Below, piece after piece: positions 13,331 through 42,538 of a stretch of 52,989 bases of DNA. The stretch is taken from contig CANGFT010000026.1 in assembly GCA_947453205.1 (NCBI GenBank), positions 1-52,989 of the forward strand, read 5' to 3'. The notes beneath the pieces are model-generated. The model was given only the letters and a program-made list of their open reading frames with translations. It did no database searches and was not told the DNA's origin. Positions within the stretch are counted from its first letter, which is position 1. Every line of letters starts with the position of its first letter. A program made the position numbers and the translations under genes. Origin of the DNA: Beijerinckiaceae bacterium. GTDB lineage: Bacteria; Pseudomonadota; Alphaproteobacteria; Rhizobiales; Beijerinckiaceae.

Positions 13331-13333
13331 GGA

Positions 13334-18335: not shown

Positions 18336-18434
18336 GGCTTCACCGTCCATCTTCATGACGCTTATTTGTACAGTGTAACCCGGTTTCCAGCCTTCGCCAA
18401 TGGCCGCAAGGCCGCTGCGGCCCGGCGCCTGCGG

Positions 18435-19659: not shown

Positions 19660-21717
19660 GTGGCGCTCGTTGTCGCCCTGGATATTGGCGGAACTTTCAC
19701 CGATCTGGTCGCTTTCAATCTCGACAATGGCGAGATCACGCAATCGAAAAGCTCCACCACGCCCTATGACCTTTCGGTCGGGATCCGCAACACCCTGCTG
19801 AAAAGCGGGCTTCCGGTCGCTGCGCTCGACACATTTGTTCATGGCTCGACGGTCGCCATCAACACGGCCATCGAGCGCACCGGCGCAAAGACGGCGCTGA
19901 TCGTCACGCAGGGCACGCGCGACGTCTATCAGATCGGCCGCGGCAACCGACCCGAGTCCTATAATTTCCTGTTCAAGCGCGCCGAACCCTATGTGGCGCG
20001 CCGCAACACCTATGAAGTGGCCGAACGGCTCAACGCCGCTGGCGAAGTGCTCGTCGAACTCGACGAAGCCGCAACCATAGAGGCTGTCGAACGCATCAAG
20101 GCGCAGGGCGCGGAGGCCGTCGCCGTCTGCTGCCTGCATTCGTGGTCGAACCCCGATCATGAGGCGAAGATCGGGCGCATCCTCGCAAAGGGCTTTCCTG
20201 AAGCCTTCCATTCGCTGAGCCATGAGATACTGCGCGAATATCGCGAATATGAGCGCACCTCGACGACCGTGCTGAACGCTTATGTCGGGCCGCGCGTCAG
20301 CCGCTACCTGCGTGATCTTGAATCACTGCTTGAGGAGCTGGGCTTCCAGGGGCTCCTGCTCATCATGCAGTCGAATGGCGGCACCATGTCGCCGGCGACC
20401 GCGATGCGCCTGCCGGTCGCGACCATGGAGTCCGGCCCTGTCGGCGGCATCATCGCGGGCGCGGAGGTCATGCGCGATCTTGGGATCAGCAATGTCATCG
20501 CCTTCGACATGGGCGGCACGACCGCCAAGGTCAGCCTCGTCAAGGAGAGCGAGCCGACCATCGCGCAGGGCTATTATGTGGGCGGCGAAGCGAGCGGCCA
20601 TCCCGTCATGTATCCCGTCGTCGACATTGTCGAAGTCGGCGCCGGGGGCGGCTCCATCGCGTGGATCGACGAAGTGGGCGGCCTCAAGGTCGGGCCGCGC
20701 AGCGCCGGCGGCCATCCCGGCCCCGTGTGTTATGGTCAGGGCGGAACGGAGCCCACCGTCACGGACGCCAACCTCGTTCTGGGGCGCCTTGCTGGCGACA
20801 GCTTCCTTGGCGGCGAAATGCCGCTGAACGTCGAGGCGGCGCGCGAGGCCATCGCCAGGAAGATCGCCGAGCCGCTGGGCATGAGCGTCGAGGCCGCGGC
20901 GCATGGAATCATCCGCATAGCCATCGCCGAAATGTCGCTGGCCGTTCAATCCGTCTCCATCGGCAGGGGTCATGACCCCCGCGATTTCGCCATGGTGGCC
21001 TTTGGCGGCGCAGGCCCCCTGCATGCGGCGGAGATTGCGCGGGAGCTGCATATTCCGCGCCTCGTGATCCCGCGTGTGCCCGGCCACTTCTCCGCGCTGG
21101 GCATGCTGCTCTCGGATCTGCGCCATGACTATGTGCGCACCTATTACAAACCTCTTGAGGCCTGCGACTTCGACGCGCTCCTGCAGATCTTTGCAGAGAT
21201 GCGCGAAGAGGGCGAAACGCTTCTGCGCAGCGAGGGCGTCGCCGCACAAGACATGTCGGTGCAGCTTTATCTCGACATGCGCTATGTCGGTCAGGAATTC
21301 CCGATCCAGACCCGCATCGACGAGGCGAACCTGAAGGCCTGCGACCGCGAGGCGCTGCGTCAGGCCTTTGATCTCGTGCACAACCAGCGCTTCGGCCACC
21401 AGGCCGAGAGCGAGCAGGTCGAGGTGGTCAACTGCCGCCTGACCGCGCGCGGCAAGCGGCCCCGCGTCAGCTTCCCGCCCATCGGCGCGGTCGGCGGCGC
21501 GGCGGCGCCGAAGATGCGCGAGATGATCGCCTCGGATCCCGCGCAGCGCGTCGCATGTCCCGCCTATGATCGTGATCTGCTCATTCCCGGACAGATCATC
21601 AACGGGCCCGCCTGCATTGTGGAATACGCCTCCACGACCATTCTCTTTGAAGGCGACCGGATGGAAGTGCTCGGCACGGGTGAACTGATGATCCATATCG
21701 CTGAGGCCCAGCAATGA
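19660..21717 (+). CDS. Hydantoinase A/oxoprolinase family protein (HyuA, set D)
   Basis: The 685-residue ASKHA-fold ATP-binding subunit starts with GTG, fixed by GGAGGAAAC directly upstream, and reads VALVVALDIGGTFTDLVAFN. Other motifs are HGSTVAINTAIERTGAKTA, AFDMGGTTAKVSLV near residue 285, GAGGGSIAWIDE, TVTDANLVLGRLAG and FGGAGPLHAAEIAREL near 448. It is the first gene of set D and overlaps hyuB by ATGA, as expected for a stoichiometric complex. It resembles the set E HyuA more than the set A one (GYYVGGEASGHPVMYPVVDIV in D, a similar stretch in E). Expected role: ATP-dependent activation of a cyclic amide, lactam or ketone-type substrate. Confidence 0.92.
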   Translation: MALVVALDIGGTFTDLVAFNLDNGEITQSKSSTTPYDLSVGIRNTLLKSGLPVAALDTFVHGSTVAINTAIERTGAKTALIVTQGTRDVYQIGRGNRPESYNFLFKRAEPYVARRNTYEVAERLNAAGEVLVELDEAATIEAVERIKAQGAEAVAVCCLHSWSNPDHEAKIGRILAKGFPEAFHSLSHEILREYREYERTSTTVLNAYVGPRVSRYLRDLESLLEELGFQGLLLIMQSNGGTMSPATAMRLPVATMESGPVGGIIAGAEVMRDLGISNVIAFDMGGTTAKVSLVKESEPTIAQGYYVGGEASGHPVMYPVVDIVEVGAGGGSIAWIDEVGGLKVGPRSAGGHPGPVCYGQGGTEPTVTDANLVLGRLAGDSFLGGEMPLNVEAAREAIARKIAEPLGMSVEAAAHGIIRIAIAEMSLAVQSVSIGRGHDPRDFAMVAFGGAGPLHAAEIARELHIPRLVIPRVPGHFSALGMLLSDLRHDYVRTYYKPLEACDFDALLQIFAEMREEGETLLRSEGVAAQDMSVQLYLDMRYVGQEFPIQTRIDEANLKACDREALRQAFDLVHNQRFGHQAESEQVEVVNCRLTARGKRPRVSFPPIGAVGGAAAPKMREMIASDPAQRVACPAYDRDLLIPGQIINGPACIVEYASTTILFEGDRMEVLGTGELMIHIAEAQQ

Positions 21718-23474
21718 CGAGCGAAATCAAAATCGACCCCGTCACCCTCGAGGTGCTGCGCAACGCCTTGCCAGCCATCGCCGCCGACATGGCGATCGAC
21801 CTGCAGCGCACCTCCTACAACATGATGATCTACGAGGTGCAGGACTTCTGCTGCGCCTTGCTCGATGCGCAGGGGCGGTTGATCTGCCAGAACGTCGGCG
21901 GCGTCTCACACTTCGTCGCCGACCTTGGCGTCGTCATCCGCGATGGACTCGACCGCTATGGCGCGGATGGCTTCAGCGCTGGCGACGTCATCATCACCAA
22001 CCACCAGCGGGTGGCGGGCCAGCATCTCAACAATGTCTGCGTCTACACCCCCTGTTTCGTGGACGGGGTGTTGCAGGGTTTCGCCGTCGTGCGCGCGCAC
22101 TGGGTGGATGTCGGCGGCCTTTCGACCGGCTTCAGCGCAGCGTCCATGGTCGTCGACCCCTGGATGGAGGGCCTGCAGCTCGACCAGATCAAGATCTACG
22201 AAGCGGGCGCGCCCGACCAGAAAGCGCTGCGGATGATCCGCGACAACATCCGTTATCCCGACGCGGCCATGGGCGACCTGCGCTCCCAGATCGCGGCCTG
22301 CCGCATGGCTGAGCGCAGGCTCTCAGGGATCTTCCAGCGCTATGGCGCGCAGACCGTGCATGGCGCGATAGAACGGATCTTCTCCGACAGCGAGGCCAAG
22401 TGCCGCCGCATCGTCAGCGAGATTCCCGATGGCGTCTATGAAGCGCAATCCTTCCTCGATCCCGACGGCGCCGACAAGAGCGACACGGTGCCAGTGCGGA
22501 TCAAGGTCATCGTCAGCGGCGGCGACATGACCATCGACCTCACGGGTTGTTCGCTCCAGCGCAAGAGCGGCCTCAACGGCCGCACGCTCGCGGGCGCCTA
22601 TATCGCCTACAAGGGCCTCACCGCGCCGCTCGAAGCCGTCAACGAAGGCTCGTTCCGCGCGCTGAAGGTCGAGATTCAGGAAGGCAACTTCATGATGGCG
22701 CAATTCCCCGCCGTCATGGCCGGCTGGAGCCGCATGCTGCCGACCGTCGTCGACACGATCCTGCGCGCCCTTGCGCCTGCGCTGCCGGGAACCATACCGG
22801 CCGCGCATCTTGGCACGCTCGGGGGATCCATGACCTTCTTCGGCCGCGATCCCGCCACCGGCCGCGACTTCATTCTCCAGACCATCGAAGGCGGCGGCTG
22901 GGGCGGCAGGCCTTGGGAGGATGGCGTCAACGCCACGGTCTCCGTCTGTCAGGGCGATGTGCGCAACGCGCCCATTGAAACGCTGGAGCTCAAGACGCCC
23001 GTCCTCGTGCGCCAGCGCGCCCTGCGTGATGGTTCGGGCGGGCCGGGCAAGTTCCGCGGCGGCCTCGGGCAGATCACGGAGATGACGAGCCTGTGCGAAG
23101 GGCGCTGGAGCGCCTCCAACGCAGGTCGCCGTCAATGCGCCCCGTGGGGCCTTGCAGGCGGCGGCGCAGGGGCGACCTCGCGCAACTATATGCGCCAGCC
23201 AGATGAAGCTGAGTTCCGCCCTGTCGATCCCGTGCGCGTTCTCTCGCCGCCGATGACCAGCGTCCGCATCGCCACCGCAGGCGGCGGCGGCTGGGGCTCG
23301 CCCCTTGAGCGCGATCCTGAAAAGGTGCTGGCCGATGTGCTCGACGGCTTCATCTCCCTCGCATCCGCCGAGGCTGATTACGGCGTGCGCATCGATGCGG
23401 CGAAAATGACCATCGACACCGCCGCGACCATCGACCGCCGCAAGGACATGCAGGCGCGGGCGAGCAAGAATTGA
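21714..23474 (+). CDS. Hydantoinase B/oxoprolinase family protein (HyuB, set D)
   Basis: The 586-residue B subunit starts MTSEIKIDPVTLEVLRNALP and contains RTSYNMMIYEVQDFCCALLD, TNHQRVAGQHLNNVCVY near residue 95, RDNIRYPDAAMGDLRSQIAA and RDGSGGPGKFRGGLGQI. The segment that in typical family members reads NDPYxGGTHLPD is NHQRVAGQHLNN, a change shared with set E HyuB but not with set A (NDAYLTGSHLNH), marking a D/E subfamily. Translation is coupled to hyuA through ATGA. It pairs with HyuA as the catalytic half; the substrate is not known. Confidence 0.92.
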   Translation: MTSEIKIDPVTLEVLRNALPAIAADMAIDLQRTSYNMMIYEVQDFCCALLDAQGRLICQNVGGVSHFVADLGVVIRDGLDRYGADGFSAGDVIITNHQRVAGQHLNNVCVYTPCFVDGVLQGFAVVRAHWVDVGGLSTGFSAASMVVDPWMEGLQLDQIKIYEAGAPDQKALRMIRDNIRYPDAAMGDLRSQIAACRMAERRLSGIFQRYGAQTVHGAIERIFSDSEAKCRRIVSEIPDGVYEAQSFLDPDGADKSDTVPVRIKVIVSGGDMTIDLTGCSLQRKSGLNGRTLAGAYIAYKGLTAPLEAVNEGSFRALKVEIQEGNFMMAQFPAVMAGWSRMLPTVVDTILRALAPALPGTIPAAHLGTLGGSMTFFGRDPATGRDFILQTIEGGGWGGRPWEDGVNATVSVCQGDVRNAPIETLELKTPVLVRQRALRDGSGGPGKFRGGLGQITEMTSLCEGRWSASNAGRRQCAPWGLAGGGAGATSRNYMRQPDEAEFRPVDPVRVLSPPMTSVRIATAGGGGWGSPLERDPEKVLADVLDGFISLASAEADYGVRIDAAKMTIDTAATIDRRKDMQARASKN

Positions 23475-23481
23475 GGCGATC

Positions 23482-24612
23482 ATGAGCCGGGAACAAGACC
23501 TCAAGAAGCGACTGCAAAGCGCAAGGGCGGAGATGGCCGCGCAGGGCGTCTCGACCCTCGGCGCATTCTATGGGGCGCAGCACAACATGTTGCGCCCCGA
23601 CCCCATCCTGTTGCTGCTCGACTACCGTTGCCTTGGGCCAAGCGCGCTCATCATTCCCATGCAGGGACCGCCGCAACTGCTTCTGAGCCCGGTCTGGGAT
23701 CTTGCGAGGGCGCGTGAGGCCATCGGCGAGCGCGCCGTCGTGACAGCGATTGAAGAAGACGCCTTGCCCGAGTCCATGGCGGCCGGGATCCTGGCCTGCG
23801 GGGGGGCGCTGGCGCTGGCGGGCGCAGATGTGATGCCGGTGGGTCTGGCGCGGCGGCTGATGGCTGCGCTTGGGGTGAAGCCTGCCGATGGCGCGCCGAT
23901 CATCCGCACTTGCGGGGCGACGCGCGCGCCATTTGAGCTTGACCGCGTCGCACGCGCCGCCGCCATCGCGGATGCAGGCTTTGCGCATCTGTGCGAAATC
24001 GCGCGGCCGGGCATGTGGGAATATGAAATCGCCGCAGAACTCGAATGTGCGATGCAGAAGCTTGGCTCCGAAGACAATTTCGGCCTCATGTCGACCGGCG
24101 ACCATAATGTGGCTGTGCGCGCCGTGCGCGACCGCAAGCTCTGCGCGGGCGATCTCATCGTCAGCGAAATCACGCCATGCAACGGCGGCTATTTCGCGCA
24201 GCTGTGCCGCACCCTGATTTTGGGCGAGCCAAGCGATCTGCAGCGAGAGAAATTCGACCTGCTGCTGCGCGCCGAGGACGCGGGACTCGCCATGGCGAAA
24301 CCCGGCTTGCCGACGAGCGGCATCGCCAAGGCGGTGAACGAGGTCATCGGCGGCGCGGGCTATGCCGATTACTGCCGCCCGCCCTATATGCGCACGCGCG
24401 GCCATGGCCTTGGACTTGGCGGCGTGACGCCCGCCGATCTCAACGAGAGCTCCGGCGGCACGTTGCAGCAGGGCATGACCATGGTGGTGCACCCCAACCA
24501 ATATATCCCGGAAACCGGCTATCTCATGCTCGGCGACACCATCGCCATCACGGACGAGGGCCACAGGCTTTTGACGCAAACGCCGCGTCAGCTCTTTTCG
24601 GCGAGGGCCTGA
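23482..24612 (+). CDS. M24-family (creatinase/prolidase fold) protein lacking metal ligands (M24a, set D)
   Basis: The 376-residue protein has a creatinase-type N-terminal domain and a C-terminal pita-bread domain of peptidase family M24. By alignment with aminopeptidase P, the five metal ligands D, D, H, E, E become Glu229 (SEITPC), Gln240 (FAQLCRT), His308 (RGHGLGLG), His337 (VHPNQY) and Gly351 (LGDTIAIT), so only the His is clearly kept. It is therefore unlikely to be a metallo-aminopeptidase. Creatinase shows that the fold can hydrolyse C-N bonds without metal, a plausible role next to HyuAB. It starts 7 bp after hyuB and ends 2 bp before a second M24-like gene, suggesting a heteromeric pair. 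Confidence 0.85.
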   Translation: MSREQDLKKRLQSARAEMAAQGVSTLGAFYGAQHNMLRPDPILLLLDYRCLGPSALIIPMQGPPQLLLSPVWDLARAREAIGERAVVTAIEEDALPESMAAGILACGGALALAGADVMPVGLARRLMAALGVKPADGAPIIRTCGATRAPFELDRVARAAAIADAGFAHLCEIARPGMWEYEIAAELECAMQKLGSEDNFGLMSTGDHNVAVRAVRDRKLCAGDLIVSEITPCNGGYFAQLCRTLILGEPSDLQREKFDLLLRAEDAGLAMAKPGLPTSGIAKAVNEVIGGAGYADYCRPPYMRTRGHGLGLGGVTPADLNESSGGTLQQGMTMVVHPNQYIPETGYLMLGDTIAITDEGHRLLTQTPRQLFSARA

Positions 24613-24614
24613 CC

Positions 24615-25775
24615 ATGCGCACCATGCATTCCGTCGTCAAACGCGGCGCGCTCTATTGGGACCGCGACCTCAGCCCACCCGACATCTACGCCGAGCGGAT
24701 CGCCGCCATTCAAAAACGCATCGCAAGCCATGGCGACGCCGCATGGCTGCTTGTGGGAGATGTGATCCGCCACGGACATGTCGTCTACGCGACGAATTTC
24801 ATGCCGCGCGTGCGCTCGGCGCTGGTCTTCATTCCCGCCGAGGGCGCCCCTACCCTTTTCGCGAACATCAGCTTGCGCGACATTCCGGCGGCGCAGACCA
24901 TCACCGACATTCAGGACATCCGCGCCTTCAGCCGGCTGCCGAAGGATTTGACCACCTTTCTTGAGGAGCGCCTGCCGCAAGGCGGCGTGGTCGGAACCTG
25001 CGGCGTCGAGGACTGCCTGCCCGCCACGGACTGGTGGGCCATTGAGGAAGCTGCGCCGCTCATTTCATGGCGCCCGCGCGACGCTGAGCTTGTCGCCCTT
25101 CGCGCGCGCAAAGGGGCCTTCGAAGTCGCGGCCATCGAGCGATCGATGGCGCTCGCGGATCTCGCGCTCGACGCCGCCCCCGATCTGCTGCGCCAGGGTC
25201 AGTCCATGCGGGTCGTCATAGCCGAACTCGACCGCCTCGTGCGCAGCCGCGGCGCCGAAGACGTGCGCTTTCTCGTCGCCACCGGCGCGCAGACCAGGCA
25301 AGCCCTGCGGCCCGTTGACGACACGACAGCCCAGCCCGGCGATCAGGTGCTGATCTATTGCGCGGTCCAGAACCAGCGCTATTGGGGCGAAGCAGCGCAG
25401 ACCTATGCGATGGGCGCGGCGAGCGACGCGCAGCGCGCTCTTCACACAAGGGCGCGCCTGGCCCTTGACGCCATGGCGGAGAAGATCGCGCCAGGCGTGC
25501 GCGCCAACGCCCTTGCGGAGGCCGCAGCCGAAGTCCTTGAGGGGGATTACGCCAGCGCAGCCCATTATGGACTTGGAGGCGGCGTCGGCCTCGACGCCCG
25601 CGAGATTTTCGAGATCACTGCGAAAGACGCAAGCCCCATCGACGCCGGCGCCACGGTGGCCCTTCGCATCATGCTCCATGGCGCCGATGGCGGATCCGCC
25701 GTCACCGGCACGCTGCATCTGGGCGGGCAAGGCCCGCGCCTTCTGGGCTGTCGTCACGCGCTGATCGTCGTTTGA
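24615..25775 (+). CDS. Degenerate M24-family protein (M24b, set D)
   Basis: The 386-residue protein begins MRTMHSVVKRGALYWDRDLS at an ATG 2 bp after the M24a stop; the reading frame is open far upstream but that part overlaps M24a. It has a creatinase-type N-terminal domain with HVVYATNFMPRVRSALVFIP and a C-terminal M24-like fold. The metal positions are lost: the first Asp region reads VLIYCAVQNQRYWGEAAQTY, the His region HYGLGGGVGLD has Gly, and the first Glu region reads TVALRIMLHGADGG. It probably does not bind the usual dinuclear metal and may be the structural or regulatory half of a heterodimer with M24a. Confidence 0.75.
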   Translation: MRTMHSVVKRGALYWDRDLSPPDIYAERIAAIQKRIASHGDAAWLLVGDVIRHGHVVYATNFMPRVRSALVFIPAEGAPTLFANISLRDIPAAQTITDIQDIRAFSRLPKDLTTFLEERLPQGGVVGTCGVEDCLPATDWWAIEEAAPLISWRPRDAELVALRARKGAFEVAAIERSMALADLALDAAPDLLRQGQSMRVVIAELDRLVRSRGAEDVRFLVATGAQTRQALRPVDDTTAQPGDQVLIYCAVQNQRYWGEAAQTYAMGAASDAQRALHTRARLALDAMAEKIAPGVRANALAEAAAEVLEGDYASAAHYGLGGGVGLDAREIFEITAKDASPIDAGATVALRIMLHGADGGSAVTGTLHLGGQGPRLLGCRHALIVV

Positions 25776-25791
25776 GGCTGCTGGAGGGATC

Positions 25792-26886
25792 ATGAACGAG
25801 ACACAGCCGCCACCCGGCAAATTCCTGACCGACCCCTATCTTGAGTGGACCAGAGGCGAGGGCATTCCGATCTACGAAGACTTCGGGCTGGACTTGCGCG
25901 CGCTTGAGCTCAAGCATTGGGATCGCCTCGGCGTGCCCGGCTGCATCGCCCATGTGAAGGGGCGCGGGGATTTCATGACGATCTTCGTCATCGAAATTCC
26001 CCCCGGCGGCAAGACGGCGCCTATGCGCCACCTCTACGAAGACGCCGTCATCGTCATCAGCGGCCAGGGCAGCACAACCATTGAGGGCCATGATGGCGTG
26101 AAGCATCATTTCGAATGGGGGCCCCGCTCCGTCTTCGCGCCGCCGCTCAATCTGCGCCATCAGTTCTTCAACGCCTCCGGCCAGCAGCCTGCGCGCCTCG
26201 CCATCTGCTGCAACATGCCGGCGGTCTATAATCTCTTCCGCAGCGAGAACTTCATCTTCAACAACACATCGACATTTCCAGACCGTGAAGGCGACCCCAG
26301 CCATTTCAAGGGCGAGGGCTCGTTCATTCCCGTGCGGCCGGGCAAGCATATGTGGGAGACGAATTTTGTTCCCGATGCGCTCAATCTTGAGCTCAAGACC
26401 TGGGCCGCGCGCGGCGCCAACGCCTCCCATATCCAGCTCATCCTCGCCGACAGCATCCTGCATGCGCATCTGTCGGAAATGTCGGTCGGCACCTACAAGA
26501 AATCCCACCGCCATGGCCCGGATGTTCACGTCTTCTGCCTGTCAGGCGAAGGTTATTCGCTGTTCTGGTATGAGAACGACAAGGATTTCGTGCGCATCGA
26601 CTGGACCGAAGGCTGGGTCTTCGCGCCGCCGGACATGATGTATCACCAGCACTTCAACACAAGCCCCGAAAAGACCCGCTATCTGGCCATCGGCCACGGA
26701 AGCGTGCGCTATCCTTTCACGCAGAACATGTGGAAGGTCTACAGGGGTGTCGATGTCGATGTGAAAAGCGGCGGCAACCAGATCGAATACAGGGATCAGG
26801 ATCCGCGGGTGCATCAGATCTTTCTCGATGAAATGGCCAAGAAGGGGATCACCCCGCGCATGGACGCCTATTTTCAGTCGGACTGA
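25792..26886 (+). CDS. Bicupin protein (two cupin domains)
   Basis: The 364-residue protein has two cupin barrels. The N-terminal one (about residues 60-145) contains APMRHLYEDAVIVISGQGS and LRHQFFNAS; the C-terminal one (about 235-310) contains SHRHGPDVHVFCLSGEGYS and MYHQHFNTS. The second barrel keeps a clear His-rich metal site and the first has a partial one. Such bicupins include ring-cleaving dioxygenases (gentisate 1,2-dioxygenase type) as well as isomerases and binding proteins; the exact activity is unknown. The ATG follows CTGGAGGGATC and sits 16 bp after M24b, so it belongs to the operon. Set F encodes two single cupins that together correspond to this arrangement. Confidence 0.85.
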   Translation: MNETQPPPGKFLTDPYLEWTRGEGIPIYEDFGLDLRALELKHWDRLGVPGCIAHVKGRGDFMTIFVIEIPPGGKTAPMRHLYEDAVIVISGQGSTTIEGHDGVKHHFEWGPRSVFAPPLNLRHQFFNASGQQPARLAICCNMPAVYNLFRSENFIFNNTSTFPDREGDPSHFKGEGSFIPVRPGKHMWETNFVPDALNLELKTWAARGANASHIQLILADSILHAHLSEMSVGTYKKSHRHGPDVHVFCLSGEGYSLFWYENDKDFVRIDWTEGWVFAPPDMMYHQHFNTSPEKTRYLAIGHGSVRYPFTQNMWKVYRGVDVDVKSGGNQIEYRDQDPRVHQIFLDEMAKKGITPRMDAYFQSD

Positions 26887-26936
26887 AGCATATTCAACAA
26901 GGGTGCGCGGACAAGCGCCACAAGGGAGGCGACGAC

Positions 26937-27977
26937 GTGCGGCGCTTGCGACATCTGGCGACCATTCTGGGTCTTTGCGCCCTCACGCCCGGCCTCTCCT
27001 CGGCCGCCATGGCCGATGCGGTGGCGGATTTCTATCGGGCCAAAACCCTTGAGATCATGGTCGGGACAGGCCCAGGCGGGGGCTATGACGCCAATGCGCG
27101 CCTTGTGGCGCGGCATATGGGGCGCTTCATTCCGGGCGCGCCGAAAATCATCGTCTCAAACGTGCCAGGCGGGGGCGGGATCACCGCGGCGAACAAGCTG
27201 TTCAACGTCTCGCCACGCGATGGGCTCTCCATCGGCACCTTCAGCAATGCGCTGCTGACGCTGCCCTTGATCAGCCCCGCCGCCACGCGCTTCGACGCCA
27301 CCAAATTCACCTGGATCGGCAGCCTTGCGCGTGAAGACGGCGTCTGCATCACTTCAAAAGCCTCCAATGTCGCAACATGGGATCAGCTTGCGCGCAAGGA
27401 GATCATAGCCGGGACGACGGCGCCGGGCACAACGACCCATGTCTACGCCGCGCTGCTTGCAAACCTGTTCTCAGGGAAATTGCGCCTCATTTCCGGCTAC
27501 CCCGATGGAGGCTCAGTGGTGCTGGCCTTCACGCGCGGCGAAGTGCAGGCGCTTTGCCAGACCTATTCGAGCCTGAATGTGCTGCATCCCGAATGGCTGG
27601 CGCAGCGCCAGGTCAATCCCATCGTCGCCATCGGCCTCAACCGCATTCCCGCCCTCAAGGACATTCCCGCGATCATGGAGTTCACGCGCTCGGAAAACGA
27701 ACGCGACATCGTGCGGATTCTGGTGGCGCCTACCGCCGCTGGACGACCCTTCGCAGCGCCGCCCGGAATCACTGAGGATCGCGCGGCGGCCCTGCGCACG
27801 GCCTTCAAACAGATGAGCGGCGACGCGGAGTTTCTCGCGGACGCCGCCCAGGCGCGCATCGAGGTTCAGATCATGGGCGGGGCTGAGATCAGCAGCCTGC
27901 TCGATGATGTGTCGAAAACGGATCAGGCTATCCTTGAACAGGTCAGGCGCATCGTCGAGCCTGCCTCCGCCAAATGA
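26937..27977 (+). CDS. Bug/TctC-family periplasmic solute receptor (set D, first)
   Basis: The 346-residue protein starts with GTG, preceded by GGGAGG, and has a signal peptide (MRRLRHLATILGLCALTPGL, cleavage near AMA). Bug motifs are DFYRAKTLEIMVGTGPGGGYDANARL and NVPGGGGITAANKLFNVSPRDG. It lies 50 bp after the bicupin gene in set D. Together with the second set D receptor (29508-30635) it replaces the ABC importer found in set E. Confidence 0.88.
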   Translation: MRRLRHLATILGLCALTPGLSSAAMADAVADFYRAKTLEIMVGTGPGGGYDANARLVARHMGRFIPGAPKIIVSNVPGGGGITAANKLFNVSPRDGLSIGTFSNALLTLPLISPAATRFDATKFTWIGSLAREDGVCITSKASNVATWDQLARKEIIAGTTAPGTTTHVYAALLANLFSGKLRLISGYPDGGSVVLAFTRGEVQALCQTYSSLNVLHPEWLAQRQVNPIVAIGLNRIPALKDIPAIMEFTRSENERDIVRILVAPTAAGRPFAAPPGITEDRAAALRTAFKQMSGDAEFLADAAQARIEVQIMGGAEISSLLDDVSKTDQAILEQVRRIVEPASAK

Positions 27978-28092
27978 GGCGCCGGGGGCCGCGCCCTTGC
28001 AAGCGGCCCGCCCAGCCCATAATCTTCACACATGAAACCGCGCCTTTCGGCATGGCGCGGCGTTTCGCAAAACAGACATCATCGGGGGGACC

Positions 28093-29439: not shown

Positions 29440-29507
29440 GCTTGCTTGAAGCCGCCACAGCCCATCTGATGATTTTAAAAACAAAAAAGCCACGGGAGAT
29501 ATGTTCC

Positions 29508-30635: not shown

Positions 30636-30658
30636 ATGAAGAAATAAGGAGAAAGCCC

Positions 30659-31711: not shown

Positions 31712-31721
31712 TGGAATGGAC

Positions 31722-31753
31722 GGGCGGTTTCCTCGCCAAAGGCGGAGCCGCCC
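31722..31753. terminator. Hairpin in the convergent gap between sets D and E
   Basis: GGGCGG at 31722-31727 pairs with CCGCCC at 31748-31753, and an inner stem CGCC-AAA-GGCG (31734-31744) stacks inside. The structure fills the 42-bp gap between two convergent operons, the usual place of a shared terminator. It lacks a T-run on either strand, so intrinsic termination is not certain. Confidence 0.35.
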
Positions 31754-35125: not shown

Positions 35126-35177
35126 TGCGTCCTCCCTTGATGCGCCGCCCATCGGCGACAGGCTCAAGCGTCCATCT

Positions 35178-36500
35178 CTATCGTGCGGCAGGCAGCTGCG
35201 CCTGCAACATCTGCGTGAAGGCTTCCAGCGAGGCGCTGGACTCGAAGGCGTGCACGCCCGTCGCCCAGGCGACGCGGGCCCTCGCCTCGCCCAGGGCTGG
35301 CGACAGGAGGGCGATGGCCTTCTTCTCCATCTCCTCGTTCTCCAACGGATTGGCGGCGTCGCCATGGGCGTTCTCGATGGCGCGAGAGACGACGCCTTCA
35401 TCCGTCGTCACTTCGATGCGCCCCTGCCAGCGCGCCGGATAGGCCTTCTGCAATTCGGCGTCGGGCTCGACGGTGACGCGCGCGGCGAAGGCGTGAAGGG
35501 CGTCGTCCTGCATGAGGAGGGTGCGATCAAGATCCCAAAGACCCTCACGCCGCAAGGCCGCAAGCGCCATCTGGAACCGCACGCTCACATAGCCTGAGGC
35601 GCGTGAATGGCGGTCGATGGGCTGGGAGATCATATGCGCATAGGCCGGGGGCACGAAAACGCGGATTGCGCTTATGCGCTCGACCGCAAGCCCGCCGTCG
35701 AGCAGGTCTATCAGCGCCTGCGTCGGCGCAAGCGCCTGGCGGGCGGTGGAGAAGGGCTTGGCGCCGAGGCCGGGAAGGCTGAGGCTCTCGCCCAGACCCG
35801 AGGTCAGCAGAGACAGGTCTGCATCGAGCCCCTGCGCGTTCTTGAGCCATTCGCCATCGAGCAGGGTCGGATCGCCCTTGTAGCCATTGCGCGCGGCATG
35901 GGCGGCGCGCAGGCCGTTCTGCACGGCGCATTTCAAGAGAACCCAACGACCCGTCGGCGTTCCCTGAAACCGCCCTGTCCGCCCCGACGAAACCATCAGG
36001 GACATCGAAAGCGCATTGACCGTGGCCTCCTGATCGAGCCCCCAAAGGCGCGCGGCGATCGCGGCGACGCCGAGCGGCGTGGCGAAACAGGTGGGCCAGA
36101 CCCCCTTGTAGAGGACCTGGGGACCATTGATCGCCAGCCCAAGCCGCACCATCAGTTCGACGCCGATGCGGATCGCGTCTTCCGCCTGTTCCGGCGAAGG
36201 CTGCGCGCCGATCAGCAGCGCGGCGGGCATGGCGACGGATGTCGGGGTGGTGCAGGAGCCCAGATGAATATCGTCCACCTCGGTGCTGCGGATGACGCCC
36301 GCCGCCGTGGCCGGCGCCTCCGTCCAGTCGCCGGTCTGCCCGAGCCCGAGCAAGGACGCGCCTTCGGGCGAATGGGCGCCAGCGACCAGCGCCACGCCGG
36401 CGTCAGCGATATGCCTGCGCAAATGGGCGCGCTGAGGGGCGGGTAGATCCGCTGAGGACGACGTGCGGACGTAATCGGCGATAAGGCCAAGGCCGGTCAT
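35178..36500 (-). CDS. MmgE/PrpD family protein (set E)
   Basis: The 440-residue protein is a second MmgE/PrpD family member, clearly divergent from the set D one. Landmarks are STEVDDIHLGSCTTPTSVAM near residue 72, GVWPTCFATPLGVAAIAARL near 133, and TGRWVLLKCAVQNGLRAAHAA near 180. Its ATG overlaps the stop of M24b (ATGA), so it is translationally coupled to the hyuA-hyuB-M24a-M24b core. Family functions include dehydration, decarboxylation and epimerisation of dicarboxylic or tricarboxylic acids. A role in processing the acid released by the core is plausible. Confidence 0.85.
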   Translation of the reverse strand: MTGLGLIADYVRTSSSADLPAPQRAHLRRHIADAGVALVAGAHSPEGASLLGLGQTGDWTEAPATAAGVIRSTEVDDIHLGSCTTPTSVAMPAALLIGAQPSPEQAEDAIRIGVELMVRLGLAINGPQVLYKGVWPTCFATPLGVAAIAARLWGLDQEATVNALSMSLMVSSGRTGRFQGTPTGRWVLLKCAVQNGLRAAHAARNGYKGDPTLLDGEWLKNAQGLDADLSLLTSGLGESLSLPGLGAKPFSTARQALAPTQALIDLLDGGLAVERISAIRVFVPPAYAHMISQPIDRHSRASGYVSVRFQMALAALRREGLWDLDRTLLMQDDALHAFAARVTVEPDAELQKAYPARWQGRIEVTTDEGVVSRAIENAHGDAANPLENEEMEKKAIALLSPALGEARARVAWATGVHAFESSASLEAFTQMLQAQLPAAR

Positions 36501-37630
36501 TTTGAAACCTCGTCAGAACGAAGGAGCACTTCGGGTTCGCCCTGCATGCGGGTCAGGACCAGCGCGGAGGCGATGCCGCCCCCTTGGGCTGGATCAAGGA
36601 CGCCGGCCTGAAGGGCGTAGACCGTATTGGCTTGCACAAGCCCCTCGCGGCCTGCGCCGATCTCCCCGCCTTCGCTGAGCGAAAGGCCGATGCGCCGCCC
36701 GAAGAGGCCCGTCAGCGCGGGATGCAATGGCGCCCCAAGCTGCGCCTGCGCGGCCTGCGCAAGCCCCGCCACAGGGGCGCCCGCCTGCATGCCCGCAATG
36801 AGGCCGTCGAGCGCCGCCTTGACCGGGCCGCGCAAAGACTGCGGCGCGCCGCTCTCGACATAGGCGTCCGCCCAGCAACCCAGATATTTCACCGCGACAT
36901 AGGCGAGGAGATGTTGCGGGCGATCCTCGAAACGCGCCGCATAGGGCTCGAAGGTGCGGCCGCCATCGCGGCTCACCAGGGTGCGCACATCATGGACCGC
37001 ACGCTGGCGCGCCATGCGCTCACCCGCAAGGGCTGCGGTCTCAATGTCGTCGCCCCTCTCCCACGCCTCGCGAAGAGCGGCGGCGGCGGCGCGCGCGATG
37101 TCGGCGGCCTCGCGCAGGATCGCGATTTCGCGCGGGCGATGGGTCGCGCGGGCGGCCTCAACGATGTCATCGCCCGGTTCGAGCCTGAAACGATCCCCGA
37201 GGCTCTTTTCGACGGAGCCGAAGAGCAGCGGCGTCATGAGGTCAAGGCCGATGGCGCCCAGCGTTCCGCCCTCCCCCAGCGTCGCCAACCATTCGTCAAA
37301 CCAGCGCCATTCCCAGCCCGTCTTCACATCGGGAACCCAGGTCATGGTGCGCATGGCCGGAATGTCGCGCGACGACATGGAGGCCAGCAGGCGCGGCTCG
37401 CCCTTGGCCGGAATCAGCGCCATGGCCCAGCGCATGCGCGGAATGAAATTGGTGAACCAGGCGAGGGAGCCATGCTCGCGCGCATCGCCATAGAGCAGCA
37501 CGCCCGCCCAGCCGCGCTCGGCCATGGCCTCGCGGATGGCGCCCATGCGGATGTCGAACTCGTCGCGCGGCAGGCGCTCCTCGTCCCAGAGATAGGAGCC
37601 CAGAATGATAGAAGGATGAACCGTCAGCAT
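36497..37630 (-). CDS. Degenerate M24-family protein (M24b, set E)
   Basis: The approximately 377-residue protein starts MLTVHPSIILGSYLWDEERL at 37630, with GAGGGAC upstream; a longer form from 37696 would overlap M24a. It has the creatinase-type N-terminal domain (SLAWFTNFIPRMRWAMALIP, matching HVVYATNFMPRVRSALVFIP in set D). The C-terminal domain again lacks M24 metal motifs: AYVAVKYLGCWADAYVESG at the first Asp region, no His or Glu motifs, and LQANTVYALQAGVL-like sequence near the end. It follows M24a by 10 bp and precedes MmgE/PrpD, the same order as in set D. Confidence 0.72.
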   Translation of the reverse strand: MLTVHPSIILGSYLWDEERLPRDEFDIRMGAIREAMAERGWAGVLLYGDAREHGSLAWFTNFIPRMRWAMALIPAKGEPRLLASMSSRDIPAMRTMTWVPDVKTGWEWRWFDEWLATLGEGGTLGAIGLDLMTPLLFGSVEKSLGDRFRLEPGDDIVEAARATHRPREIAILREAADIARAAAAALREAWERGDDIETAALAGERMARQRAVHDVRTLVSRDGGRTFEPYAARFEDRPQHLLAYVAVKYLGCWADAYVESGAPQSLRGPVKAALDGLIAGMQAGAPVAGLAQAAQAQLGAPLHPALTGLFGRRIGLSLSEGGEIGAGREGLVQANTVYALQAGVLDPAQGGGIASALVLTRMQGEPEVLLRSDEVSK

Positions 37631-37640
37631 GGCATGTCCC

Positions 37641-38762
37641 TCAAGCGGCCACGGAGTCGAGACTGGCGTCGACGTCCGAAAGTGAGATGGCGCCATTGTG
37701 CGAAATGACCACGGTCTCGCCGCACATGAGATAGCCGGTCTCGGGAATATATTGATTGGGATGCATGACGAAGACCATGCCTTCCTCGAGGCGGACCTCG
37801 CTGGTGTCGGTGAGGTCGCCAGGGCGGTCGGAGGTCACGCCGAGCCCGTGGCCGCGCACGCGCATATAGGGCGGCCTGCAGTAATCGCCGTAGCCCGCTG
37901 CGCGGAAACAGTCGTTCATGGCCTCCGTCACCTGCGCCATGGTGGCGCCGGGCACGGCGGCGTCCATGCCGCGGCGCATGGCCTCCTGCAGCAGTTTGTA
38001 TTTGTCGTGCAGGATCTGGGTCGGACGGCCGATCACCGTGGTGCGGCAGATCTGCACGAACTGGCCCTTATAGCAGGGCGTGATTTCGCCAAGGATGATG
38101 TCGCCTTCCTGCAGGATGCGCCGCCCCGCCGCACGCACGGCGAGATTGTGCTGGGAGGCGCTCATCAGCAGGAAGTTATCCTCAGCGCCGAGCCCCTTCA
38201 TATAGGTGTAGATGTCGGCTGCGAGTTCGAATTCGCGCACGCCCGGACGGGCGGCCTCCATGAGCCGCTCATAACCCCGCTCAGCGATCCAGACCGCCTT
38301 GCGCGCGGCGGCGAGCTCGTCCGCATTGCGCACGCGCGCCAGATGCGAGGCGAGCCAATCCACATGGCGCGGCGGCGCAGCGAGCAAGGCCTCGACGCCT
38401 CGGGCGAGCGCGCGGCTCTGCTTGACGAGCGCGCAGACGGCGAGCTTGGCCCCGGCGAGCCCCTCTCGCGCCAGAACCTCCCCCAGCGCCTTGACGAGAT
38501 CGTCAACCGCCAGAGTCCTGTGCGTGGTCGAAAGGGCGCGGGCGCGCTCGCCATCCCATGAGGGGGTCACGATGAGGGTCGAGCCTCCATCGCGCGCGAT
38601 CACCACGGCGCTTTCGCCGATGGGGCGAACGCCGCTCATCACATAGACGGCGTTTGAATCGAGAAAGGAATTCTGCCCGTCGTTGAAAACGAGGAGGCCA
38701 TCCAGCCCTTCTTCCCCCAACCAGGCGGCGGCCTGCGCGGCCCGTTCGTTCTGTCTGGCCAT
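37641..38762 (-). CDS. M24-family protein lacking metal ligands (M24a, set E)
   Basis: The 373-residue protein parallels M24a of set D: LLMSASQHNLAVRAAGRRIL, then GEITPCYKGQFVQICRTTVI in place of the two-Asp motif, RVRGHGLGVTSDRPGDL at the His position, and VMHPNQYIPETGYLMCGET in place of the two Glu motifs. The substitutions (Glu, Gln, His, Cys/Gly) coincide with those in set D, so they are inherited features of a subfamily, not random decay. AGGAAC precedes the ATG, 7 bp after hyuB. A creatinase-like C-N hydrolase is the best guess. Confidence 0.85.
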   Translation of the reverse strand: MARQNERAAQAAAWLGEEGLDGLLVFNDGQNSFLDSNAVYVMSGVRPIGESAVVIARDGGSTLIVTPSWDGERARALSTTHRTLAVDDLVKALGEVLAREGLAGAKLAVCALVKQSRALARGVEALLAAPPRHVDWLASHLARVRNADELAAARKAVWIAERGYERLMEAARPGVREFELAADIYTYMKGLGAEDNFLLMSASQHNLAVRAAGRRILQEGDIILGEITPCYKGQFVQICRTTVIGRPTQILHDKYKLLQEAMRRGMDAAVPGATMAQVTEAMNDCFRAAGYGDYCRPPYMRVRGHGLGVTSDRPGDLTDTSEVRLEEGMVFVMHPNQYIPETGYLMCGETVVISHNGAISLSDVDASLDSVAA

Positions 38763-38769
38763 CTTGTTC

Positions 38770-40512
38770 CTACCCCGCTGCCTGCGCGCGTTTCTCAGCC
38801 CTGACGTTTTGCGTGGCGTCAGTGTTCACGCACTGACCGGCAAGGTCAATGACAACGCCATAATCGCGCAGGGCGCCGTCAAGGCTCACAAGTCCGGCCT
38901 CGACATCGGCGAGCACCAGAGCTGGATCGCGCTCAAGCGGATCGCCCCAGCCGCCGCCCGAGCCTGTGCGGATGATGACCTGCGAATCCGCCGGCACGGG
39001 CCGCATGACCTGATCGACCGACTCAAAGCCATCAGCATTCGCCAGCTTCAGGAAATATTCCGCGCCGCCGCCCTGCCCGCCCCCACGCAGTCCCCACGGC
39101 GGGCAAAGCCGGCGCCGGGGCCGCGACATGTTCCACTTGCCCTCGACGAGGTTGCGCACGCGCACATCGATCCCAAGCCCGCCGCGGAACTGGCCGGGGC
39201 CGCCGGAATCCGGCCGCAAGGACCGCTCCTCGATCACCACGGGCGTCTTGATCTCCATGCTTTCGATAGGCGAATTCTTGACATTGCCCTGACAGACCGA
39301 GACCGAGGCCGACTCGCCATCCCCGATGGGACGCCCGCCCCATCCGCCGCCCTCAAGGCTTTGCAGCACGAAATTCCCGCCTGTGCGCGGATCGCGCCCG
39401 ATGAAGACGATGGACCCGCCGAGGAGGCCGTGATGGGCCGCCGGAATGCGGTCGGGAGCGGCGCCCGCGAGCGCCTTGAAGATCGTGTCTACGACCGTCG
39501 GCACGATGAGGCTCCAGCCGCCCATGGGCGCGGGATAATGCGCCATCATCACATTGCCTTCGGGGATGATGGTTTGCAGCGCCGCAAAAGAGCCTTCGTT
39601 GACCGGCGCCGATGGTTCGGTGAGCGCCTTATAGGCGACGCGCGAGGCCGCGAGCGTGCGCGAATTGATGCCGCCCCGACGCTGCGAGGCGCAGCCCGAC
39701 AGATCGATCGTCATGTCGCCGCCGCTGATCGTGACCTTCGCATGAATGCGAATGGGATCGTTCGGCGTGACGCTGTCGTCGTCATACCAGGACTCGGCCT
39801 CATAGACGCCGTCAGGAATGCTCTCGACGACCTTGCGGCAACGCCGCTCGCTTTCCCTGTAGATCGTGGCGATGGAGGCTTCGACCACATCCGCGCTGTA
39901 GCGCTCATAAACCTCTTCAAGCCGACGCACGCCGAGCCGGCAGGCCGCGATCTGCGCGCGCAGATCACCCATGGAGGATTCGGGGTAACGAATATTGTCG
40001 CGAATGACCGCATAGAGCGTCTTGTTGAGCTTGCCCGCCTCGTAGATCCGCAACTGGTCGAGCTGCAGCCCTTCGAACCAGGGATCGCTCACCATGGGGC
40101 TTGCGCCAAGGCCCGTGCTAGAGCCGCCGACGTCGATCCAGTGCGCGCGGGTCATGGCGAACCCCCGGAGCTTGCCACCGTGGATCATCGGCATGTAGAT
40201 CACGATATTGTTGAGATGCTGGCCTGCGACCCGCTGATGGTTGGTGATGAAGACATCTTCGGGAGCGAAGCCATCGAGCCCCTCGCGCGCCACCACATCT
40301 TCAATGATGACGCCGAGATCAGCGACGAAATGCGAGACGCCGCCGACGTTCTGCGAGATCAGGCGGCCCTTTTCATCGGTCAGCGCGGTGCAGAAGTCGC
40401 AGACCTCATAGATCATCATGTTGTAGGAGGTGCGCTGCAGGTCCGCCGCCATTTCATTGGCGATGGCGGGCAGCGTGTTGCGGATGACTTCGAGCGTGAC
40501 GGGATCAATCAT
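38770..40512 (-). CDS. Hydantoinase B/oxoprolinase family protein (HyuB, set E)
   Basis: The 580-residue protein begins MIDPVTLEVIRNTLPAIANE and contains RTSYNMMIYEVCDFCTALTD, TNHQRVAGQHLNNIVIY near residue 90, RDNIRYPESSMGDLRAQIAA and RPDSGGPGQFRGGLGIDV. It carries the same NHQRVAGQHLNN signature as set D HyuB. GAGGCTGAG precedes the ATG, 7 bp after hyuA. It is expected to form a complex with the set E HyuA. Confidence 0.92.
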   Translation of the reverse strand: MIDPVTLEVIRNTLPAIANEMAADLQRTSYNMMIYEVCDFCTALTDEKGRLISQNVGGVSHFVADLGVIIEDVVAREGLDGFAPEDVFITNHQRVAGQHLNNIVIYMPMIHGGKLRGFAMTRAHWIDVGGSSTGLGASPMVSDPWFEGLQLDQLRIYEAGKLNKTLYAVIRDNIRYPESSMGDLRAQIAACRLGVRRLEEVYERYSADVVEASIATIYRESERRCRKVVESIPDGVYEAESWYDDDSVTPNDPIRIHAKVTISGGDMTIDLSGCASQRRGGINSRTLAASRVAYKALTEPSAPVNEGSFAALQTIIPEGNVMMAHYPAPMGGWSLIVPTVVDTIFKALAGAAPDRIPAAHHGLLGGSIVFIGRDPRTGGNFVLQSLEGGGWGGRPIGDGESASVSVCQGNVKNSPIESMEIKTPVVIEERSLRPDSGGPGQFRGGLGIDVRVRNLVEGKWNMSRPRRRLCPPWGLRGGGQGGGAEYFLKLANADGFESVDQVMRPVPADSQVIIRTGSGGGWGDPLERDPALVLADVEAGLVSLDGALRDYGVVIDLAGQCVNTDATQNVRAEKRAQAAG

Positions 40513-40519
40513 CTCAGCC

Positions 40520-42538
40520 TCACTGCGCCAGAGTGATGATGAGTTCGCCCGTTGGGGCGACCTCGCAGCGATCGGCCGGGAATATCACCGTCGTCGATCC
40601 ATATTCCTGAATGAGCGCTGGCCCCATCAGAACCTCGCCCGCCCGCAACGATGCGCGGTCGCGCACAACGCATTCGACGGCTGGGCCGCTCGCCATGCTC
40701 ACCAGGGCGAGGCGCGGCGGCGTCGACTCCGAGCCCGGCGTGGGCATGCCCGGCTTGGGCCTTGGCGCGCGCGCCACAAGGCGGACGTTTATCATCTCCA
40801 CCGGCTCGTCATCGGCGTTATGTTCATAACGCGCCTGATGAAGCGCATCAAAAGCGCTGCGGATGGAGGCGCGATCAGCATTGGCGATCTGTGCGGGCGT
40901 CACGGGCACCGACAGATTGAACTCCTGTCCGACATAGCGAAGGTCGAGGAAATATTCGACATGGGTTTCCGACTGGCGGGCCATGCCGCGCAAGCCCGCC
41001 TCCAGCTCCGCGATGACCGCAGCGATCTCCTTGAAATCCGCCGTGTCGATGCGCGCGGGGAAGGTGCGCACCGCGTCATGGCGCTCATCGGCGAGCAACA
41101 TGCCCAGCGCCGAGAAATGCGAGGGGAACCACGGGATCACGACCGTGGGAATGCGCAGGTCGCGCGCGATGGCGACCGCATGCAGCGGACCTGCGCCGCC
41201 CGAGGCGACCAGCGCGAAATCGCGGGGATCATAGCCCTTCTCGACCGAGACCTGCCGCACAGCGAGCGACATCTTGGCGATGGCGATGTCGACGATGGCG
41301 CGCGCCGCCGCCTGCGCGTCCATGCCCAGCGGCTTTGCGATGCGTGATTCAATTCCAGCGAGCGCCCCCGCGCGATCAAGCCGCATGTCGCCGCCAAGGA
41401 AACCTTCGGGGTCGAGGCGGCCAAGCACCACATTGGCGTCGGTGATCGTCGGGTCTTCACCGCCAAGCCCGTAGCAGATGGGCCCAGGCGCAGAGCCCGC
41501 GCTGCGCGGGCCGACCTTCAGGGCGCCGTCGTCGAGCCAGGCGATGGAGCCGCCGCCAGCGCCGACTTCGACGATGTCGACCACCGGGATCATCACGGGA
41601 TCGCCGCTTTCATAGCCTCCGACATAATAGCCTTCGGCCATGGCGGGCATGCGGTCGCGCACCAGACTCGCCTTCGCGGTGGTGCCGCCCATGTCGAACG
41701 AGATGGAATTCGGATAGCCGAGCGCCGCCGCGATCTCAGCGCAGGCGATGATGCCTCCGACCGGCCCGGACTCCATCATCATGACAGGCCGACGCGCCGC
41801 AACCTGCGGCGACATGACCCCGCCATTCGACTGCATGATCGACAGTTCGCCCGCAAAGCCATGCTTGCGCAATGATCCCTCGAGCGCGCCCACATAACCG
41901 CTCACCTTCGGGCCGATATAGGCGTTCACCGCCGTCGTTGAGATGCGTTCATATTCCCGATATTCGCGCATGATCTCGTGGGACAGGGAGACATAGACAT
42001 CCGGCAGGGCGCGCCGCAGCGCCTCGCCCGCCTGCTCCTCATGGGAGACGTTAGCATAGGAATGGAGGAAGCAGACCGCCACCGCGTCATAGCCCTGCCC
42101 GGAGATGATCTCGGCCAGCCCTTCGATCTCGGCCTTGTCGAGGGGCTTGCGCACCACCCCGCCCGCCAGCATGCGCTCGTCGACCTCGAAGATGGAGGCG
42201 CGCGGCGTCAGCGGTTTGGGCCTTGCGAAAAAGAGATTGTAGGCGTCAGGACGATTGCCGCGCCCGATGGCGTAGACATCGCGCGTGCCCTTTGTGACGA
42301 GCAGCGCGGTGCGCGCGCCCTTGCGCTCGATCAGCGTGTTGATCGCAACCGTCGAGCCATGGATGAGCTGCGTCGCGTCTGCGAGCCTGAGGCCGCTATA
42401 GTCGATGCAGTCAAGGATTCCATCGACAAGATTGTCGGGCGTCGTGAGCCTTTTGGCGTGATAGAGTTGACCCGCGGCGTCATCGAACGCCACAAGGTCG
42501 GTGAAAGTGCCCCCGATGTCGACCGCAACAAACAGCAA
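40520..42538 (-). CDS. Hydantoinase A/oxoprolinase family protein (HyuA, set E)
   Basis: The 672-residue ATP-binding subunit appears to start with TTG at 42538, six bases after GGGGGG, and reads LFVAVDIGGTFTDLVAFDD. No in-frame ATG lies nearby. Motifs are HGSTVAINTLIERKGARTAL, SFDMGGTTAKASLV near residue 278, GAGGGSIAWLDDG, TITDANVVLGRLD and SGGAGPLHAVAIARDL near 440. It is the first gene of set E, divergent from the LysR gene across 115 bp that contain a strong palindrome, so LysR control is likely. Confidence 0.92.
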   Translation of the reverse strand: MLFVAVDIGGTFTDLVAFDDAAGQLYHAKRLTTPDNLVDGILDCIDYSGLRLADATQLIHGSTVAINTLIERKGARTALLVTKGTRDVYAIGRGNRPDAYNLFFARPKPLTPRASIFEVDERMLAGGVVRKPLDKAEIEGLAEIISGQGYDAVAVCFLHSYANVSHEEQAGEALRRALPDVYVSLSHEIMREYREYERISTTAVNAYIGPKVSGYVGALEGSLRKHGFAGELSIMQSNGGVMSPQVAARRPVMMMESGPVGGIIACAEIAAALGYPNSISFDMGGTTAKASLVRDRMPAMAEGYYVGGYESGDPVMIPVVDIVEVGAGGGSIAWLDDGALKVGPRSAGSAPGPICYGLGGEDPTITDANVVLGRLDPEGFLGGDMRLDRAGALAGIESRIAKPLGMDAQAAARAIVDIAIAKMSLAVRQVSVEKGYDPRDFALVASGGAGPLHAVAIARDLRIPTVVIPWFPSHFSALGMLLADERHDAVRTFPARIDTADFKEIAAVIAELEAGLRGMARQSETHVEYFLDLRYVGQEFNLSVPVTPAQIANADRASIRSAFDALHQARYEHNADDEPVEMINVRLVARAPRPKPGMPTPGSESTPPRLALVSMASGPAVECVVRDRASLRAGEVLMGPALIQEYGSTTVIFPADRCEVAPTGELIITLAQ

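Follow-up and report, generated by a model that had tools for sequence, protein, structure and literature searches.

Contig CANGFT010000026.1 of a Beijerinckiaceae bacterium (assembly GCA_947453205.1; 52,989 nucleotides, here called the window) contains two gene sets, D and E, which share a core of four genes in the order hyuA-hyuB-M24a-M24b. The module of HyuAB and M24a/M24b is real, old, and apparently undescribed, and its parts come from known families. Judging from sequence, the M24 pair is its most unusual part and seems to split one enzyme's job between two proteins. An earlier note on this DNA had described a duplicated core with swapped transport systems, an interpretation that is partly supported as a whole. 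The note knew of no described system of such composition, and our literature search likewise found no paper that describes the module.

Set D spans 19660-31711 on the plus strand and set E spans 42538-31754 on the minus strand, tail to tail within 23 kb. Consecutive core genes are separated by -4, 7, and 2 bp in D and by 7, 7, and 10 bp in E. Pfam searches find all genes named by the earlier note in their places, with the core in the same order in both sets. The order recurs in other genomes and is therefore more than chance. The core genes are as follows.

19660-21717, plus strand: HyuA of set D, ATP-binding subunit (GTG start; Pfam PF01968, PF05378)
21714-23474, plus strand: HyuB of set D (PF02538)
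23482-24612, plus strand: M24a of set D, creatinase-like, four of five metal ligands replaced (PF00557; alignments)
24615-25775, plus strand: M24b of set D, divergent M24 partner (PF00557, 79.5 bits on the longer frame 24177-25775)
40520-42538, minus strand: HyuA of set E (TTG start; PF01968, PF05378)
38770-40512, minus strand: HyuB of set E (PF02538)
37641-38762, minus strand: M24a of set E (PF00557; AlphaFold2 pLDDT 91)
36497-37630, minus strand: M24b of set E (PF01321, 23.5 bits, cut-off 22; AlphaFold2 pLDDT 92)

A search with an M24b profile (A1, a 50-row alignment) gave 20 loci in 17 named genomes, titled Rhizobiales, Beijerinckiaceae, Roseiarcaceae, Xanthobacteraceae, Rhodospirillaceae, Burkholderiales, and others. 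Nine of the 20 loci (L001-L005, L007, and L017-L019) have HyuA and HyuB immediately before M24a. Six further loci are discussed below, and the remaining ones are cut short or unclear for HyuAB adjacency; the contigs of metagenome-assembled genomes are short. The core genes are thus adjacent elsewhere too, as the earlier note expected of a genome survey, and in two other genomes a D-type and an E-type set stand side by side on one contig (L001/L017 and L002/L018). Each of the 17 genomes has HyuB of this subfamily with an E value of 1e-100 or lower; the identity of the best match is 55-88%, and one of these matches is truncated. At 1e-140, the limit of the order survey described below, 16 of the 17 pass; the one that fails, G763, has the truncated match. 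The carriers of the gene set are mostly uncultured bacteria, often with several diverged copies.

The M24a family occupies 47 places in the 17 genomes, one to five per genome and at least two in 14 of them. HyuB (47% identity or more) lies within 300 bp on the same strand at 21 of these places and within 12 kb at seven more, counted over the 47 HyuB rows that reach this identity, lower rows being dropped. Together with four places in the home genome and two Neorhizobium galegae records, this makes 53 places; second fetches (L115-L123 and L125) were dropped from the count, L023 was left out for its weak M24 match, and L014 is without M24a. M24b lies directly downstream of M24a at 50 of the 53 places, the exceptions being L124 (none), L130 (further off), and L151 (contig end). 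Among 28 places located through M24a itself, 25 have M24b downstream, all in genomes chosen by M24b. HyuB lies directly upstream of M24a at only 25 of the 53 places, and another five had less than 1.5 kb upstream. Therefore, the four-gene core does recur, but the tightest unit is the M24 pair.

A transposase-like frame (judged by eye) stands at the expected position of M24a in L014 (1-400), and the same genome has M24a on a different contig (L124). In L008 (11224-12219) and L014 (1624-2613), a polysaccharide-deacetylase-fold protein follows M24b, and no HyuAB was found there. The L008 protein partially matches allantoinase PuuE (122 bits versus a cut-off of 425), and the two are perhaps another ring opener in the place of HyuAB. 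L054 (24-3679) presents an M24-family gene, outside the M24a/M24b family, between HyuB-like stretches (31-33% on each side).

Trees of HyuA, HyuB, M24a, and M24b from 14 clusters largely agree. Each pair of trees has 7-10 of 11 splits in common, compared with a mean of about 0.2 and a maximum of 3-4 for shuffled labels. Six splits, the D clade and the E clade among them, are present in all four trees; support is low (46-59) at some nodes of the HyuB, M24a, and M24b trees. The modules have therefore largely descended as units, which is the congruence that the earlier note had looked for. The importers vary: E-type cores are accompanied by a NitT/TauT-type ATP-binding cassette (ABC) importer in L001, L002, and L007, by MmgE and Bug receptors in L004, and by another ABC importer with SBP_bac_8 binding proteins in L003 and L005. 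The idea of a conserved core with interchangeable import modules is thereby supported.

Five families were considered as a further recurring enzyme next to the M24 pair and rejected. An unassigned family in seven loci is a weak NMT1-type binding protein, and four families in three loci each are of PEP-mutase, 2-hydroxyacid dehydrogenase, GST, and TPP-enzyme types. The check covered these five out of a longer list, which also included two families seen in four loci.

The home genome (4.2 Mb in 109 contigs) has ten HyuB places. Outside the window, the HyuB genes on contigs C51 (62%) and C5 (49%) have M24a and M24b neighbors, ordered M24a-M24b-HyuA-HyuB on C51 and as in D and E on C5. The genome thus holds four modules, not two. 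The M24b of C5 is very diverged (Creatinase_N, 34 bits).

At the five metal-ligand columns, M24a has E226, Q237, H305, H334, and G348 (set E numbering), and the pattern E, Q, H, H, G is found in 23 of 23 sequences. The ligand set of M24 metallopeptidases (D, D, H, E, E) is thus not present in M24a, where four of five are replaced, and M24b does not keep it in full. Residues invariant in the M24a alignment are E226, Q237, R303, H305, H334, N336, and Y344, and M24b lacks most of the invariant ones. M24a conserves its catalytic domain. M24b conserves its N-terminal domain, with the loop residues N61, F62, P64, R65, and R67, more than its catalytic domain, the opposite of ordinary M24 proteins (a reference of 46 sequences, one place counted twice as L045 and L067). 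The model for the ectoine hydrolase DoeA, TIGR02993 (cut-off 613), gives M24a scores of 51.5 bits (D) and 59.6 bits (E), and leaves the M24b of D and E unmatched.

HyuA and HyuB of both sets belong to the HyuAB superfamily, with PF01968/PF05378 and PF02538, respectively, above cut-off. The ATP motifs of HyuA are intact in 14 of 14 clusters (DIGGTFTDL, DMGGTTAKV, and GGHPGP in set D). In the caprolactamase of Pseudomonas jessenii, the metal ligands of CapB are Asp41, His99, Asp102, and His124 (PMC8453981); HyuB has Asp-His-Asn-His at this tetrad in 14 of 14, set D included. The best curated models for both proteins are the caprolactamase subunits (NCBIfam equivalogs NF050156 and NF050157, cut-off 1000 bits each), which score 526 and 487 bits for HyuA and 235 and 230 bits for HyuB, short of the cut-offs. 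With the acetophenone carboxylase models NF042975 (cut-off 1500), NF042960 (1250), and NF042976 (1500), the best scores are 326, 249, and 98 bits. Because the ATP motifs are intact and the nearest curated models are caprolactamase subunits, ring opening of an amide is our best guess for HyuAB from its sequence.

We lean slightly towards an explanation in which HyuAB would open a ring of the lactam or imide type and a putative one-sided M24a/M24b heterodimer would then hydrolyze a C-N bond. The substrate would be taken up through an exchangeable binding-protein system. HyuA with ATP would activate a lactam, cyclic imide, or hydantoin-like amide, and HyuB would open the ring. The opened product would pass to the M24a/M24b pair, which is without the usual two-metal center. 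M24a would provide the catalytic C-terminal pocket, as in creatinase and ectoine hydrolase, with its conserved residues presumably placed in that pocket; M24b, whose own pocket is largely gone, would reach over the dimer interface with its N-terminal loop (N61 to R67). The two proteins would form a single composite site per heterodimer, as the residue pattern suggests, and hydrolyze the C-N bond there. AH2, an amidohydrolase-2 family protein, MmgE, and in some copies cupin or TauD enzymes would process the carbon part. The M24a copies, of which a genome has one to five, would serve related substrates or successive steps; the earlier note favored a family of related substrates, and the side-by-side D and E sets in two other genomes fit two successive pathway steps equally. 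More tentative, with a chance somewhat below even, is the larger claim of a new type of C-N hydrolase built of two unequal pseudo-metallopeptidases, in which a non-catalytic M24b would complete a catalytic M24a through its N-terminal domain and a homodimer with two sites would have become a heterodimer with one, joined to an ATP-driven ring opener and kept in one to five paralogous copies per genome for a family of nitrogen-containing substrates.

Several observations weigh against this explanation. The M24 pair occurs without adjacent HyuAB in L006, L008, L009, L011, L013, and L016; in four of the genomes behind these six loci (G754, G756, G761, and G764), other M24a copies do adjoin HyuB. 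Seen from HyuB, M24a lies within 12 kb on the contig at only 26 of the 47 HyuB places of at least 47% identity in the 17 genomes, a figure blurred by short contigs, and at 13 of 34 places where HyuB is 55-70% identical. The 17 genomes were picked through M24b, and hence are no independent sample. The M24b of C51 is very diverged and has no Pfam match. In its catalytic domain, M24b retains W253 in 24 of 24 sequences, R208 in 23, and D214 in 22; the second ligand column holds an acidic residue in 21 of 23 M24b sequences, and M24b has histidine at the H305 and H334 columns in nine and seven of 24, respectively. With E, H, and H still present around the old site, M24a may bind a single metal there. 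HyuB has Asn in the place of the CapB ligand Asp102 in 14 of 14. The same Asn is found in the home copy C4, with no M24 match nearby, and the substitution was dropped as a marker of M24-linked HyuB.

M24a and M24b could instead be separate homodimeric enzymes that act in turn and are neighbors merely through a common pathway. The predicted models of both show the complete two-domain M24 (pita-bread) fold, that of M24b also by Foldseek and VIA; the two proteins share only some 23% identity; the rate of evolution of M24b is roughly double that of M24a (total branch lengths of 15.6 and 7.6, respectively); and the invariant W253 lies in the catalytic domain of M24b itself. However, the loss in M24b of most M24a-invariant residues, its reversed pattern of domain conservation, and its position next to M24a at nearly all places argue against two independent enzymes, and we consider this unlikely. 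The tail-to-tail position of the sets might point to a recent duplication in tandem within this strain, with the transport genes exchanged later, but this is very improbable. D and E are only 55% (HyuA), 59% (HyuB), 39% (M24a), and 30% (M24b) identical, each falls together with its counterpart from other genomes in the trees, and the two types adjoin in L001/L017 and L002/L018 as well; identities and trees led us to reject it. The window does hold two sets, as the earlier note said, but they belong to an old paralogous module with four clusters in the genome and are no local duplication.

The two other alternatives concern the substrate. HyuAB could be an ATP-dependent, acetophenone-carboxylase-like carboxylase, and the locus would then degrade aromatic ketones or lignin-derived aromatics. 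Genes for a p-hydroxycinnamoyl-CoA hydratase/lyase (401 bits versus a cut-off of 276), an acyl-CoA ligase, and an acyl-CoA dehydrogenase at 10072-14182, the similarity of AH2 to aromatic-acid decarboxylases, and the weak similarity of the cupins to gentisate/aminosalicylate dioxygenases fit this view. Yet HyuA scores higher with the caprolactamase alpha model than with ApcC (326 and 268 bits), all under the cut-offs, and each set has a single HyuA and a single HyuB, whereas the core of acetophenone carboxylase, as described in PMC5214803, consists of alpha, alpha', beta, and gamma. We regard such a carboxylase as a little less probable than the separate homodimers. Less probable again is a module for opine-like amino-polycarboxylates or their lactams (succinamopine/iminodisuccinate type) with MmgE as epimerase. 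It would suit the D-set MmgE, whose nearest relative among solved structures is IDS-epimerase (PDB 2hp3/2hp0, E about 1e-50), the succinamopine region of pTiEU6, where HyuA/HyuB possibly open lactam opines beside LysR, ABC transport, and mmgE genes (PMC6733357), and Neorhizobium galegae, whose module includes MmgE. On the other hand, several clusters lack MmgE or have a different one, the part of PMC6733357 available to us names no M24 pair for pTiEU6, and the likeness is one of gene families.

Around the two cores, the window contains the following genes.

17313-18356, minus strand: AH2 of set D (PF04909)
25792-26886, plus strand: bicupin of set D (PF07883; kept in the D-type clusters L017-L020)
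26937-27977, plus strand: TctC/Bug-like receptor 1 of set D (PF03401, under the curated cut-off)
28093-29439, plus strand: MmgE/PrpD protein of set D (PF03972, PF19305)
29442-30635, plus strand: TctC/Bug-like receptor 2 of set D (PF03401, under the curated cut-off)
30632-31711, plus strand: TauD-family dioxygenase of set D (PF02668)
31754-32512, minus strand: ABC permease of set E (PF00528)
32509-33309, minus strand: ABC permease of set E (PF00528)
33306-34133, minus strand: ABC ATPase of set E (PF00005)
34130-35125, minus strand: NitT/TauT-type (NMT1) substrate-binding protein of set E (PF09084)
35178-36500, minus strand: MmgE/PrpD protein of set E (PF03972, PF19305)
42684-43556, plus strand: LysR regulator divergent from set E (PF00126, PF03466; same position in L001, L002, L004, and L007)
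44737-45780, minus strand: AH2 of set E, ACMSD/resorcylate decarboxylase-like (PF04909; PDB relatives)
45796-46314, minus strand: cupin 1, E side (PF07883; also in L001, L002, and L007)
46325-46861, minus strand: cupin 2, E side (PF07883 under the curated cut-off; also in L001, L002, and L007)
46858-47895, minus strand: TctC/Bug-like receptor, E side (PF03401; also in L001, L002, and L007)
47903-50212, minus strand: CDC48-like AAA protein, E side (TIGR01243, 621 bits, cut-off 803)
50321-51421, minus strand: TauD-family gene, E side, upstream of the CDC48-like gene
51361-51436: tRNA-Lys

AH2 is a fifth gene common to D and E (61% identical), which the earlier note had overlooked; the E protein is nearest to ACMSD and aromatic-acid decarboxylases among PDB relatives. 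MmgE/PrpD genes are present in both sets, as the note had it, but are no clear counterparts (best BLASTP match 31% over 110 residues, E 0.001), and MmgE was dropped as a member of the duplicated core. The two Bug receptors of D are confirmed, and so is the complete NitT/TauT importer of E, with its NMT1-type binding protein, ATPase, and two permeases in one run at 31754-35125. The bicupin and the TauD-family dioxygenase, which the note named for D, are indeed there, but cupins and TauD are not limited to D because the E side carries two single-domain cupins and a TauD-family gene beyond 42538; the TauD proteins of the two sides bear only a distant resemblance to each other. Downstream of the E permeases in L001, the same run continues with the AAA, Bug, cupin, and AH2 genes. 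AH2, MmgE, and PuuE-like neighbors hint at ring-opened or ureido-like intermediates.

The CDC48-like AAA gene lies within a catabolic run, and L001, L002, and L007 likewise have it behind their E permeases. The tRNA-Lys gene overlaps the start of the E-side TauD-family frame, and the true start is therefore probably further in. We considered a genomic island at this tRNA and rejected it: the adjoining gene inside the window encodes a LeuA-type synthase, not an integrase. A third HyuAB set (3319-14182, minus strand) includes Ldh_2, a Bug receptor, acyl-CoA dehydrogenase, acyl-CoA ligase, and p-hydroxycinnamoyl-CoA hydratase/lyase. Its HyuB has the metal tetrad D-H-H-H, and the set looks like hydroxycinnamate catabolism.

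The module is taxonomically rare. We surveyed an order sample of 397 genomes and a phylum sample of 398 genomes, which overlap, scoring few candidates per genome (mostly four for M24b, five for M24a, and three for HyuB in the order sample). The home genome scores high by construction because its own sequences sit in profiles A1 and A3, and the M24b counts concern the D/E type because A1 misses M24b of the C5/C51 type. In the order sample, M24b scores 562 and 473 bits in the home genome but no more than 114 in any other, M24a scores 427-621 bits against a maximum of 146 in the others, and HyuB passes 1e-140 in the home genome only; M24a places absent from the profile still reach at least 295 bits. 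The order-survey M24 matches L026-L053 were rejected as ordinary M24 proteins, with no HyuAB match in the fetched 2.7-4.1 kb. In the phylum sample, M24b passes 1e-30 in two genomes, the home genome and a second one, which scores 108 bits. A search of 72,556 plasmid records gives HyuB at 1e-100 in two of them and M24a at 60-80% identity in three, and all of these records are from Neorhizobium galegae.

HyuAB and M24 hydrolases are loosely annotated, as "hydantoinase" and "Xaa-Pro peptidase", and the recurring unit gives both a shared context; it predicts that the name "peptidase" is wrong for M24a and M24b. It is also a possible case of a homodimeric enzyme split into catalytic and supporting subunits. 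Compared with CapAB, the module belongs to the same two-subunit 5-oxoprolinase-hydantoinase family, with intact ATP motifs in HyuA and three of four CapB ligands in HyuB. It differs in reaching about half of the alpha cut-off and about a quarter of the beta cut-off, in the change of Asp102 to Asn, and in its linked M24 pair. Creatinase (creatine amidinohydrolase) and the ectoine hydrolase DoeA/EutD are each encoded by one M24 gene, whereas the module has two unequal ones, whose predicted structures align with them at no more than 19% identity. Like the module, the pTiEU6 succinamopine region combines HyuA/HyuB, LysR, ABC importers, and mmgE, and its authors suggest that HyuA and HyuB may open lactam opines (PMC6733357); unlike the module, it has opine dehydrogenase-type genes, and the part of that paper available to us names no M24 genes.

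Another close system is in Neorhizobium galegae, where plasmids pHAMBI540a and pNgVX, two of the three plasmid records with M24a, carry LysR, HyuA, HyuB, M24a, M24b, MmgE, a binding protein, an ATPase, permeases, and AH2 in one run. According to the trees, this cluster is the counterpart of the home copy on C5; the D-type bicupin and TauD are not matched in the pHAMBI540a stretch. The matches to hyuB, M24a, M24b, and MmgE are continuous in pHAMBI540a (L056) and come in pieces with broken frames in pNgVX (L055, 12207-17172). A published table for this species lists N-methylhydantoinase B and Xaa-Pro dipeptidase (PMC4417242), entries that may belong to this cluster. The pHAMBI540a record is unannotated, and the pNgVX annotation of the cluster consists of family names only. 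Since this cultured legume symbiont has a plasmid copy, the substrate can be sought there by deletion and growth tests.

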